64,000 nt of DNA from Aquibacillus rhizosphaerae (GTDB taxonomy: Bacteria > Bacillota > Bacilli > Bacillales > Amphibacillaceae): the NCBI RefSeq assembly GCF_030282825.1, contig NZ_JASTZU010000063.1:434001-498000 (forward strand), given 5' to 3'. The stretch's first letter is position 1; every line of letters begins with the position of its first letter. Positions 33,947 to 38,067 of this stretch are shown here, piece by piece. The notes beneath the pieces are model-generated. The model was not told the origin of the DNA and did not search any database. It saw only the letters and a list, made by a program, of their open reading frames with translations. Made by a program: the position numbers and the translations under genes.

Positions 33947-34306
33947 TTAAGAAACTGTTAGCCAATCGATTGCGTCATCTCTTTCTGTGAGATTAAAATG
34001 CTTAGCGTTCATATTTGGTAAAAAACTACTTACTTTTGTAACAAGTTCCATCCATTTTTTGTCACTGATGACAGCAAGCTTGTTCACATCATTCCAATGC
34101 TTGGCATCAAACTTTAAGTCTTCTATTAAACTTTGGACAGAATAACCTTTAAGATCTTTAATCATTAATAATAGGTTAACTTTTCCGTCCGCAGCATTTT
34201 TAAGTTTAAAATATTCTTTGAATTCAATCATGTCTGTCTCGGTAATCTTACCCTCAACATGAACTTCAACTACGGATTCTAGATTATTTGTTCTTAGAGT
34301 AATCAA
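33947..34306 (-). CDS. SpoIIAA-like (STAS-fold) small protein
   Basis: The start is probably the TTG at 34306, eight bases after GGGAGG; the longer frame to 34360 runs through that site. 119 residues: a beta-strand opening (VVEVHVEGKIT), a middle NLLLMIKDLKGYS and a FDAKHWNDVNKLAVISDKKW segment typical of the SpoIIAA-like PF11964 family. These proteins resemble lipid-binding CRAL-TRIO/STAS folds. Function unknown. It has its own terminator and faces the vWA relic on the other strand. Confidence 0.82.
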   Translation of the reverse strand: MITLRTNNLESVVEVHVEGKITETDMIEFKEYFKLKNAADGKVNLLLMIKDLKGYSVQSLIEDLKFDAKHWNDVNKLAVISDKKWMELVTKVSSFLPNMNAKHFNLTERDDAIDWLTVS

Positions 34307-34391
34307 AATGAATTCCTCCCTTAAAATACAATACCCGTCTGTAAGATTTAATAAACACATCTGTGGGACACCGAATCTGCCTTTAAGTCCC

Positions 34392-34736
34392 CCCTACCAG
34401 AGCTTTGGCGATGGACAACGACCTGAGACAGTCATCTTTGTCATTACGATGGATGGAAAGGAAAATGCAAGCCTGGAGTTTACCTATGGTAAAGTAAAGG
34501 AGCTTTTGAACCTCTCATGACTGAAGTCACAAGTGTTATCAGCTTAATCATAAATTTTGACCAAGAAAAGCAATTGACGATTTATATTTCTAGGAGCAAA
34601 TATCGATACTGCTCAAGAAGCTGACAACCTAGGAATTAATAACGATCATGCCTATAGTTTTCAGGCTTCAAGTATAGGTGTTGAGATCATGTATGATATG
34701 GTTAATGAAATTATTGTAACTAAAAATAGAAAATAA
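34392..34736 (+). pseudogene. Relic of a vWA-domain protein gene
   Basis: Two pieces in different frames match the C-terminal half of bacterial vWA-like proteins. The first (to TGA 34518-34520) reads VIFVITMDGKENASLEF, the usual TDGxENAS strand; the second reads FIFLGANIDTAQEADNLGI and ends VNEIIVTKNRK with TAA at 34734. The N-terminal half with the MIDAS start is missing and the join is frameshifted. It is a dead gene lying just before the kinase gene. Confidence 0.8.
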
Positions 34737-34815
34737 AGGGGAATGGGCCTGTTCATAAGTCACGAGTAAAGTATAATAGTATGAAAACTGCAATTGAAAA
34801 AGTGGTGAAAAGATT

Positions 34816-35616
34816 GTGAAAGCTTATAAAAGGCTGAAGCGGGGATATAGGTTACTTACAGACCGGCGTTACAAGCAAGGGGATTTGTTAGCTGGAAAAT
34901 ATTTAGTTAAGTCAGCGTTAGGAATGGGTAGTTATGGGATGACCTATTTGTGTATAAATTTAGAAAGGCAACAGTTGTGTGTCATAAAGCAAATGACGAA
35001 AAGCAAAAAGCAGAAAGTAATACGTGAGCAATACAACCATGAAACGCAAATACTAGAACACCTAAACCATCCAAATATTCCAACATTTTTTGAACAGTTT
35101 ATATTTGAAAAAAATTATTTTTTCTCTATGGAGTACATAAAAGGACGAAATTTAGAAGATGTTTTATTTGCAGATAAGTTCAGTTTTACTGAAAGAGGAT
35201 CGTTAGTTTTAGTTAGAGATTTACTGAATATTGTTGCTTATGTACACTCAATGGGGATTATCCATGGAGATATAAGAATACCGAATGTGATTCTTCAAAA
35301 TGATAAACCTTATATTATAGACTTTGGGTTGGCTGAATTGTTCGAAAATCCAACAGAAACAAGTAAGAGAGACCAGAAGGAAAAGATTGATTTGCTTAGA
35401 GAAGACTACTTTGATATTGGTGACTTATTGTTGTTCTTGCTCTACTCTAATTACGGTACGAACGTAAAAAAAGGTCGTTCTTGGACGGAAGAATTAACAC
35501 TTCATCCACAAACGACTTATTTTTTAAAAAGGTTATTAAACATTAGAGAACCTTATACACATACGTTAGCAGCTATAAATGATGTCAATCGTGCAATAGT
35601 TTGTTTAAAAGATTAG
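34816..35616 (+). CDS. Serine/threonine protein kinase (YbdM-like)
   Basis: 266 residues from GTG, with GTGGTG eight bases upstream. All main kinase elements are visible: Gly loop LGMGSYGMTYLC (about 36-47), ATP Lys in CVIKQM, Glu in the alpha-C region, catalytic loop IIHGDIRIPNVI (HGD in place of HRD), and DFGLAE. The HGD variant is common in bacterial and small-molecule-kinase-like proteins and keeps Asp and Asn, so activity is expected. There is no membrane anchor or PASTA domain, unlike PrkC. It converges with a 63-residue basic protein gene, with two bases between stop codons. Confidence 0.9.
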   Translation: MKAYKRLKRGYRLLTDRRYKQGDLLAGKYLVKSALGMGSYGMTYLCINLERQQLCVIKQMTKSKKQKVIREQYNHETQILEHLNHPNIPTFFEQFIFEKNYFFSMEYIKGRNLEDVLFADKFSFTERGSLVLVRDLLNIVAYVHSMGIIHGDIRIPNVILQNDKPYIIDFGLAELFENPTETSKRDQKEKIDLLREDYFDIGDLLLFLLYSNYGTNVKKGRSWTEELTLHPQTTYFLKRLLNIREPYTHTLAAINDVNRAIVCLKD

Positions 35617-35618
35617 AC

Positions 35619-35810
35619 TTAACTACTGCTGCTCCCGTACCCTTTTCTTTTATAACGATGACTTCCTTGGAATGGCGAATGTCTATGGTGACCACTACTA
35701 CTGAAACGTCTAGATTTACGGCCGCTTGAGCTATGCTTATACCTGCGGTGCTTTTTTTTGCTACTACTACCACTATATTGTTTTATTTTTTTTAGAAATT
35801 TATCAAACAT
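35619..35810 (-). CDS. Ser/Arg/Lys/His-rich 63-residue protein
   Basis: AAGGAG lies eight bases before the ATG, so this is a real gene. The product opens MFDKFLKKIKQY and is then dominated by Ser runs, basic residues, His and Gly, ending in four Ser. No fold or family recognised; it should be disordered and strongly positive. The composition suits nucleic-acid or polyphosphate binding, or a kinase substrate, and it lies tail-to-tail with a Ser/Thr kinase gene. That link is inference. Confidence 0.75.
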   Translation of the reverse strand: MFDKFLKKIKQYSGSSSKKKHRRYKHSSSGRKSRRFSSSGHHRHSPFQGSHRYKRKGYGSSSS

Positions 35811-36192
35811 TCAAAAGACTCCTTTCCATGTAAATATGAATACGAATATGTTAATCATAATGTTTCAAAAAGTTCAATCTTTTTTGTTGAGTGTAATACA
35901 AATATTAATTATTACATTAAAATTAATCAGCGAATTTTCTGTTGGATTTTCAAGTGAAGATAACCTCAACATACTACTAGTTCTGTTTATTACCACATGT
36001 TTTAAAAATATTCCCTGTGGTAATTTTTTTAAAACATTTCCCATTTAGATTAAGCAAGAAGAAAAGTAATCATGAAATTCATCATTCAGAGGGGTTAATA
36101 AACAAGCGATTTTTGAAGGTAATTACGTCTTGTAGAAACAATTTAAATAATCCCTTACATAATAGAGAGATTTGCTCTCATGTAACTAAAAA
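35811..36192. other. Non-coding A/T-rich stretch
   Basis: Overlapping frames exist but none has a ribosome site or a protein-like composition. It should contain the promoter of the reverse-strand 63-residue gene. Confidence 0.35.
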
Positions 36193-36580: not shown

Positions 36581-37711
36581 CTATTTTGTTAAATAATTCT
36601 CCGTGTAATATGGTTGTGATTCTTCATTAAAAGCAACACCGACAGCGAGTGCTTCAAAATCTGAATGTAATTTATTTTCGCGATGTCCAATCGAGTTCAT
36701 TAAACCTTCGTGGGCGAAGATACTACTTGGTTGACCTGCTGCGAGGTTCTCACCAGCCATTCTATACGTAATATTATCTTCTGTCATTCGATCAAAAGGT
36801 GATTGCCCCTCAAGGTTTGTATGGCCAAAATAGTTGTTGTCAGCCATATCTTTACTATGGTCGCGAGCAGTTATTCTTACTGACTCATCCCAACTCAAAA
36901 CGGAAAGGTTGTGGTTTACCCTTGCGGCATTGGTAAGGTCGAATAGTTGATATTCGAATCCAGCTTTTAATTCCTCATTTGCCTCCGCAAAATACGCTTC
37001 TTTTTGTTGTTCGAGTTCTTCACTAATAATTTGAATCGCTGTTACTGTCAAATTTTCATGCTTATCGAAAAAAACAGTTACATAATTGTTATCGATATGG
37101 AACGTGTTATATTCTTGATTGTTTTCAATCTGATAATTGACAAACCCTTTTCGAATACTTTTAAGTGGCTCATTTAACATGGAAAGAACTGAATCTCTCG
37201 TACTGTTGAAGGTAATCCCTTGTGTTGATGTTAGTAAGTCTTGATTCGTATAAAGTCCGATCACTTCATTGTCATCATTATAAGCGGTCATGAAAAAGTT
37301 ATGATAATTTTCATGGTAAGCAACCCAATTGACCCCGTATTCATTTAATGAAGTACGTTTGGGTTGGCCAGCTTGTTGTTCTACTTTAGAACGGTCGTCA
37401 CCAAGCTCGATATTATGAACAGAAAACGACTGTTTAGATGGTCCATCAAGTTCAGGTTTATCAGGTGTAGGCTGGCTAGGTTCTTTAGTTTCATCTACGT
37501 TATCTTTCAATTTATTCAATAAAAGTTGAATTTCATTATTTATAAATTCTACTGTTTGAATCACTTTTGGATTCTCTTTTATTTCAATAACATCTGAGCG
37601 CATATCTTCATAAACGCCTTGAAAACCAGATTGGTTGAAGGTTTCTCCATAAAAATGCCAAAGAGCACCTACAATAAGTATTAAAAAGATGATACTCCGT
37701 ACTTTTGGCAA
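36581..37711 (-). CDS. Membrane-anchored CAP-domain protein (YlbC-like)
   Basis: The TTG at 37711 is preferred since GAGGTG lies six bases upstream; an ATG at 37729 sits before that site. About 376 residues. One N-terminal membrane helix (VRSIIFLILIVGALW), a polar linker rich in Pro/Lys/Glu, a CAP-associated domain (about 115-240: EYGVNWVAYHENYHNFFM) and a C-terminal SCP/CAP domain with DMADNNYFGHTNLEG, AGENLAAGQ and NSIGHRENKLH. CAP domains hold a His/Glu cluster; the role in bacteria is unclear. A second CAP protein lies near 56.2 kb. Confidence 0.9.
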   Translation of the reverse strand: MPKVRSIIFLILIVGALWHFYGETFNQSGFQGVYEDMRSDVIEIKENPKVIQTVEFINNEIQLLLNKLKDNVDETKEPSQPTPDKPELDGPSKQSFSVHNIELGDDRSKVEQQAGQPKRTSLNEYGVNWVAYHENYHNFFMTAYNDDNEVIGLYTNQDLLTSTQGITFNSTRDSVLSMLNEPLKSIRKGFVNYQIENNQEYNTFHIDNNYVTVFFDKHENLTVTAIQIISEELEQQKEAYFAEANEELKAGFEYQLFDLTNAARVNHNLSVLSWDESVRITARDHSKDMADNNYFGHTNLEGQSPFDRMTEDNITYRMAGENLAAGQPSSIFAHEGLMNSIGHRENKLHSDFEALAVGVAFNEESQPYYTENYLTK

Positions 37712-38067
37712 ATTAGACACCTCATTCATACTAATAAGTAAGTTATTATTGTAGCAAGTTTTATATATATAAACAATAGCGGGGACGAAGGGACAGTTCT
37801 CTTGCTCTTTTAATTTTATATCAATAATATGGCAGATGATAATTCGATATTTTTAATATGTTGAAAAAGCAGGAAATTGTAATGGTTAGTTGAATAGAAT
37901 AACTAATATATCTTTTTATCCATAAATCTACTTGATATGCTTTAATATTACAAATAAGTATATTATATTTCATTTTATAGACATTTTATTTATTGCGGTT
38001 TGGTTGTAGATTTTATTGGGTAGATATAAAAAAATAGGTGTAATGGAGTACACGTGGAGGGCGCCTT
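37712..38067. other. Divergent intergenic region between CAP and LTA-synthase-like genes
   Basis: It must hold promoters for both divergent genes. At 37779-37802 the segment GGGGACGAAGGGACAGTTCT is a clear member of the GGGACA-type repeat family. The right half is very A/T rich. Confidence 0.4.

Follow-up and report, generated by a model that had tools for sequence, protein, structure and literature searches.

The window analysed here is a stretch of 64,000 nucleotides from the genome of Aquibacillus rhizosphaerae, in which a gene coding for a Hanks-type protein kinase and a gene coding for a small Ser-rich basic protein converge upon each other, their stop codons being separated by two bases (35617-35618; Table 1). 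We refer to the latter gene as the mini-gene and to its product as the mini-protein. On the other side of the kinase gene lies the relic of a vWA-like gene, which ends 79 bases upstream of it.

Table 1. Features of the locus, in coordinates of the window
Feature	Position	Strand	Remarks
vWA-like gene relic	34308..34736	+	pieces 34308-34520 and 34578-34736; neighbor only, outside the module
Hanks-type kinase gene	34816..35616	+	266 aa, GTG start, one open frame
Mini-gene	35619..35810	-	63 aa, Ser/Lys/Arg/His-rich product; convergent with the kinase gene
Ribosome-binding site	35819..35827	-	GGAAAGGAG; strong, 8 bases before the ATG of the mini-gene
Element of sigma-W type (ECF) by sequence	35841..35867	-	TGAAAC-N17-CGTA; genome-wide pattern match; 30 bases ahead of the mini-gene start codon
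SpoIIAA-like gene (PF11964)	33947..34360	-	adjoins the vWA-like relic
Gene for CAP-domain protein	36581..37729	-	with CAP-associated N-terminal domain (PF14504, PF00188)

The kinase and the decayed vWA-like gene

The kinase gene is intact. Its product is detected by the Pfam Pkinase model (PF00069) with an E-value of 6e-31 and a score of 108 bits (cut-off 31.7), and searches with it as query recovered orthologues in related genomes; in a search of 100 genomes, that of the window included, these stood clearly apart from other kinases. An alignment of 56 sequences shows that K58, E76, H150-x-D152, N157 and D169/G171 are invariant and F170 nearly so, and the Gly-rich loop (G38/S39/G41) is likewise invariant. 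The catalytic loop takes the form H-x-D-[LI]-R-x-P-N in all 56 proteins, an HxDxR version of the HRDLK that is usual in Hanks-type kinases. A simple hydrophobicity count found a transmembrane-like window in none of these sequences. The AlphaFold model (mean pLDDT 94.4) assumes the kinase fold and retrieves from the PDB mycobacterial PknG and a PknA/PknB entry first, followed by many eukaryotic kinases, with TM values of 0.65-0.73. The Gly-rich loop, the Lys, Glu, HxD, Asn and DFG elements and the fold of the Hanks-type kinases are all present, and the kinase, described as active-looking in the first-pass annotation of the window, is thus intact by sequence.

Fragments of the Bacillus subtilis kinase PrkD/YbdM, which is a soluble Hanks-type enzyme too, can be read from published primers (PMC4166321, PMC3033389), and the comparison with it concerns these primer-encoded fragments rather than the whole protein. 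They comprise the N-terminus (MALKLLKKLLFD), the lysine region (YVL-K-QLRPTKAKK) and the C-terminus (EDLNRAIQSVT, against DVNRAIVCLKD in the window kinase). The lysine region matches members of our family at the expected place with up to 10 of 13 residues (median 6 of 13 over 86 rows), whereas fragments of PrkC and YabT reach at most 6 of 12, at unrelated places. Because the fragments of PrkD/YbdM fit the family, the kinase is probably of this soluble type.

One orthologue, in the locus L248 (G338:C2:219000-231189), carries an insertion of some 6 kb that splits it, while the small gene upstream of it is intact. The insert can be read as coding for a DDE-type transposase and an ATPase; this content led us to reject the idea of an element excised in sporulation, and L248 is therefore a broken kinase locus.

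The relic upstream of the kinase consists of two in-frame pieces separated by stop codons and a frame break, and the decay of this gene as initially described is thus real. None of the Pfam models matched the pieces. Intact homologues of 197 aa occur in relatives, one of which matches an ORF of the relic in the window with an E-value of 2e-8; they begin with ...FLLDRSGSMSG..., from which motif we take the family to be vWA-like. The proximity of the relic to the kinase had suggested a degenerate TerY-type module of vWA protein and kinase. However, when the intact vWA homologue was searched against the ORFs from 219 loci that contain the kinase gene or the mini-gene, only the window's own relic was recovered (in two loci, both from the window's genome). 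Furthermore, in the six genomes (60 relatives searched) that carry both a kinase and a vWA homologue the two are never close: they lie on different contigs in four, 1.6 Mb apart in one and about 290 kb apart in one. As no linkage of vWA and kinase genes is seen across species and the kinase/mini-gene pair is itself intact, we rejected the TerY-type module, which is most improbable, and the relic is incidental to the pair.

The mini-gene, its product and its linkage to the kinase

The first-pass annotation had staked its proposal of a signalling module in part on the small Ser-rich gene being conserved beside the kinase, and this is what we found. A script detected a small Ser/basic ORF flanking the kinase gene in 28 of the 30 top-ranking loci, which include that of the window; in the two exceptions the copy lies about 2 kb away (L007, as seen in the longer locus L036) or is frameshifted (L025). 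Among 80 named genomes, which are the best 80 of 301 relatives in the kinase alignment and thus biased to the closer ones, relatives of the mini-gene lie by the kinase in 77. The script recovered 75 of these, none of them more than 413 bases from the kinase, the others being L103 and L036, the latter at about 2 kb; no mini-gene was found at the kinase loci L067, L070 and L108. These 80 loci come from Paenisporosarcina, Aquibacillus, Jeotgalibacillus, Oceanobacillus, Gracilibacillus, Terribacillus, Anoxybacillus, Fictibacillus, Priestia, Domibacillus and Paenibacillus, among other genera. The conservation of the mini-gene beside the kinase makes it likely that the two products are partners. Two layouts are seen: the tail-to-tail arrangement of the window (layout A) in 35 of the 77 loci, comprising the window's clade and the named Paenibacillus loci, and an arrangement with the small gene upstream of the kinase gene on the same strand (layout B) in 42. 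A quickly built tree of the kinases (81 rows) requires at least two changes of layout; a filter there scored L059 as having none, although it does have a mini-gene. The pair was thus kept through rearrangement.

A survey of 398 Bacilli genomes recovered the kinase in 100 of them with E-values of 1.1e-49 or better, the next genome being at about 1e-37. A profile of the mini-protein (E<0.001) matched at least 43 of the 398, and all 43 also carry the kinase (hypergeometric probability 4e-30, a value uncorrected for shared ancestry); since the profile at this threshold misses variants such as those of the named Paenibacillus, 43 is a lower bound. The script places a small gene in the flanking DNA retrieved (1.5 kb for the 30 loci fetched first, 3 kb for the others) in 63 of the 100 kinase-bearing genomes, and a mini-gene is found somewhere in 81. 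In these counts G294 was tallied as having it elsewhere, yet by coordinates its mini-gene is about 15 bases from the kinase; genomes with zinc-ribbon fusions (L243, L246) were left out of the 81, and the few false small ORFs of the script (e.g. L186-L188, L206) were excluded. Neither profile nor script found a mini-gene in 19 of the 100 genomes; together with the three named loci lacking it, this implies that the kinase can work alone or that its partner is too diverged to be seen. In one family (f65) the pair is unlinked, the two genes being about 172-181 kb apart by coordinates in nine genomes, and 112-533 kb apart or on different contigs in the remaining f65 genomes with a match. A search of plasmids returned two loci only.

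The mini-gene is kept in frame and in position beside the kinase in the relatives. We drew 13 non-overlapping close pairs from 35 of the 73 mini-genes collected; dN/dS is 0.02-0.21 in 11 of them (dS could not be estimated in the other two), and over all 13 the pooled pS is 0.37 as against a pN of 0.05. Hence, the sequence of the mini-protein itself is under selection and the mini-ORF is a real gene. Current annotations might lead one to dismiss it as a chance ORF: in one of the two records inspected, that of Cytobacillus spongiae (NZ_CP089998, L299), it is absent from the gene table, which is stated to be incomplete, and in the other, that of Mesobacillus foraminis (NZ_CP033045, L298), it is overlaid by a hypothetical protein annotated in another frame, next to a gene annotated as a protein kinase. 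An artefact is nonetheless a negligible prospect, given the persistence of the ORF by the kinase across the named loci, dN/dS values well below 1, and a promoter element and ribosome-binding site of its own. As the gene was missing or mis-framed in these two records, protein databases may lack its product.

The mini-protein of the window contains 17 Ser (27%), 11 Lys, 8 Arg and 6 His, with Lys and Arg together making up 30% and His 10% of its length, has a pI of 11.6 and ends in HRYKRKGYGSSSS. The initial description of a 63-residue protein rich in Arg, Lys and His and encoded tail-to-tail with the kinase, two bases between the stops, was accurate in these respects, but the Ser content falls slightly short of the roughly one third that it had given. 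Searches of Pfam and NCBIfam with the mini-protein returned no match at E-values up to 1. Across 54 mini-proteins Ser makes up 23.4% of all residues as against 0.3% for Thr; the final residue is Ser in all 54, SSS is present in 52 and SSSD in 35, and their alignment displays a shared [Y/G]SSS[D/G] pattern and a Ser-rich C-terminus. AlphaFold predicts a single helix spanning residues 2-13 (mean pLDDT 71 over residues 1-10, below 60 thereafter). The helix is predicted to be amphipathic, with a hydrophobic moment of 0.64 over residues 1-13, while the tail beyond it, which bears the SSS clusters, is modelled as a low-confidence chain and is probably disordered. The mean N-terminal hydrophobic moment of the 54 mini-proteins is 0.54 as against 0.30 in shuffled sequences, which lends modest support to membrane binding.

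Two divergent forms were also observed. In L141 the mini-protein starts with a hydrophobic stretch that resembles a transmembrane segment, a hint that membrane attachment is the task of the N-terminal part. A sister form in L243, L246 and L247 carries an HYKxKG-like motif within a longer protein, encoded directly upstream of a shorter kinase (~240 aa); in L243 and L246 these longer proteins are zinc-ribbon fusions.

Promoter elements and recurrent neighbors

The element upstream of the window's mini-gene (G000:C63:469841-469867 in genome coordinates) recurs in other loci. The pattern [T/C]GAAAC-N16/17-CGTA precedes 37 of the 40 mini-genes in layout B and 13 of the 34 in layout A, and its strict TGAAAC form 32 and 9 of them respectively (these tallies cover 74 of the 77 loci, L059, L036 and L103 being left out). 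When spacings of 14-18 and any base before GAAAC were allowed, only spacings of 16 or 17 were found (29 and 8 genes respectively for layout B, 4 and 10 for layout A). In the same loci the element precedes none of the 34 layout-A kinase genes and just one of the 372 remaining ORFs that reach 120 aa or more, and first-order resampled sequences contained on average no more than 0.3 elements. It was not found before 21 of the 34 layout-A and 3 of the 40 layout-B mini-genes; some of these layout-A genes show near versions (e.g. GGAAC...CGTA in Terribacillus) and others nothing recognisable. Unlinked mini-genes retain GAAAC...CGT in five of the seven cases inspected (nine loci fetched). Matches to a sigma-70 type consensus around the pair were at chance level (6 found, against a mean of 7.1 in shuffled sequences). 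Of the kinase genes themselves 5 of 100 are preceded by the element. The kinase genes of L145, L147, L148 and L182, which are without a detected adjacent mini-gene, carry a sigma-W-type element.

Promoters recognized by sigma-W have CGTA as their -10 element at a spacing of 16-17, and both features are supported here because the same pattern precedes sigW and spo0M in the window's own genome. TGAAAC is given as the -35 consensus (PMC6713349). With TGAAAC, CGTA and a spacing of 17 the window's element has the sequence features of this type, and, judged by sequence, the element upstream of the mini-genes is of the sigma-W (envelope-stress) type. The own genome contains 50 occurrences of TGAAAC-N16/17-CGTA as against 18 of a backward control, so that single matches can be due to chance; those just upstream of sigW, spo0M and the mini-gene are among the 50.

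The basic, probably disordered chain and the sigma-W-type element would equally suit a cationic stress protein that binds membranes or nucleic acids independently of phosphorylation and is linked to the kinase by shared regulation only. We consider this unlikely, as the convergent layout needs no common promoter and yet the linkage is kept, and as the co-occurrence of mini-protein and kinase in all 43 genomes includes those in which the genes are unlinked.

The neighborhoods further contain spo0M, which directly follows the kinase gene on the same strand in 19 of the 80 named loci at distances of -52 to +19, and in 12 further loci, some of which share one genome. In L051 it lies upstream instead, and in the window's own genome it is on a different contig from the kinase. 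Other recurrent neighbors were noted as well. A YodL-domain protein is annotated after spo0M in L299, and a relative of it lies near the mini-gene, kinase gene and spo0M in 14 of the 80 named loci, in layout B (e.g. L055, L063, L100); another uncharacterised family recurs in 19 loci.

Possible roles of the pair and comparison with known systems

The recurrence of the pair in many spore-formers and the frequent envelope-stress element make the mini-protein probably the dedicated partner of the kinase, and the leading form of this partnership is that of a substrate. We propose, as a reading on which the scales are evenly balanced, that the two genes form a unit in which a sigma-W-induced, membrane-peripheral and phosphorylatable mini-protein is the dedicated partner of a PrkD-type kinase. 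Envelope stress would free sigma-W, leading to transcription of the mini-gene and, in the species with layout B, of the kinase gene and often spo0M on the same transcript. The mini-protein would be held at the inner face of the membrane by its short amphipathic N-terminal helix and its strongly basic tail (net charge +18), where the soluble kinase may phosphorylate its serine clusters, which comprise the [Y/G]SSS[D/G] pattern as well as the C-terminus rich in Ser. The charge of the tail would be cancelled by about nine phosphates, and phosphorylation would thus act as an electrostatic switch, by which the mini-protein might be released from the membrane or from nucleic acid, or might become a docking site for another protein. 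The physiological output would be tolerance of envelope stress. The gene pair, the selection on the protein, the promoter element, the predicted helix and tail and the intact kinase come from computation, and phosphorylation, the place at the membrane and the change in charge are inferred from composition, predicted structure and genetics. A basic tail of low complexity and rich in Ser could also serve other ends.

The main rival to the substrate reading is that the mini-protein chiefly activates or adapts the kinase, by recruiting it to the membrane or switching it on, with its own phosphorylation being secondary. The same linkage and co-occurrence data are compatible with such a role, and the mechanism by which PrkD is activated is described as not known (PMC4166321). 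Moreover, in layout A the element precedes mini-genes but no kinase genes, so the kinase could stay idle until an inducible partner appears. Against this speak the near exclusion of Thr by Ser in the mini-proteins and the retention of their Ser clusters, both of which suggest that the serines are what does the work. We therefore regard a primarily activating role as possible but doubtful, and retain the substrate as the preferred form.

Several known systems offer comparisons. Among them PrkD/YbdM of B. subtilis phosphorylates DegS at S76 in vitro (PMC3033389) and YbdM of B. cereus phosphorylates CodY (PMC12583987). In the available text of PMC4166321 and PMC3033389 neither a small partner nor sigma-W control is named for ybdM of B. 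subtilis, and ybdM and prkD are absent from that of the sigma-W regulon paper PMC3498285. A literature search of a limited library returned no paper on the kinase/mini-gene pair among the matches listed.

The CotH-CotB-CotG system of B. subtilis also combines a kinase with clustered genes for Ser-rich, polyphosphorylated partners (PMC7821199), a similar logic of composition which suggests that the pair might be a spore-coat module. In favor of this, ybdM of B. subtilis has been reported as a sigma-G gene (cited in PMC3033389), which does not fit a sigma-W unit in that species. In addition, a SpoIVA match is present in 96 of the 100 kinase-bearing genomes as against 268 of the 398 overall; however, this association may only mirror taxonomy, and in four genomes of one genus (G144, G360, G401, G442) the kinase is present and the SpoIVA match absent. 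The kinase is a Hanks-type PF00069 protein, and no CotH model is among its Pfam matches. CotH itself does not belong to the Hanks type, and CotB and CotG exceed the mini-protein in size. The system also differs in that the promoter element common to the mini-genes is of the sigma-W type, in scans that covered sigma-W-type and sigma-70-type patterns. Because of this element we dropped the spore-coat role as the leading reading, and we deem it improbable.

The suggested switch has a eukaryotic analogy in the MARCKS type, in which likewise the charge of a basic peripheral-membrane protein is lowered by Ser phosphorylation. The resemblance would be one of principle: we claim no relation in sequence, and no lipid anchor is known in the mini-protein.

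The sigma-W regulon offers a further comparison, since the putative promoters of the mini-genes are of the type that defines it. In B. subtilis spo0M is among the genes most dependent on sigma-W (core genes) and is given as a single gene in the table of PMC3498285, in the available text of which the word kinase is absent; in the loci described above it is instead a frequent downstream neighbor of the kinase gene. Spo0M belongs to the arrestin clan (PMC2515105), and its structure has been solved (5cl2). This raises a more speculative scenario, which we hold to be rather a long shot: under sigma-W control the kinase might phosphorylate the Ser-rich tail of the membrane-peripheral mini-protein, and Spo0M, whose gene adjoins that of the kinase in many species with layout B, might read the phosphorylated tail, much as eukaryotic arrestins read receptor tails phosphorylated by kinases. 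Were such a relay true, it would provide a molecular role for Spo0M and a cognate partner for the PrkD-type kinases. More generally, a small co-selected gene with a stress-type promoter allows a direct test with two proteins. Through the run-on into spo0M, which belongs both to the arrestin clan and to the core sigma-W genes, a connection of Ser/Thr phosphorylation with the envelope stress response can be put to the test as well.
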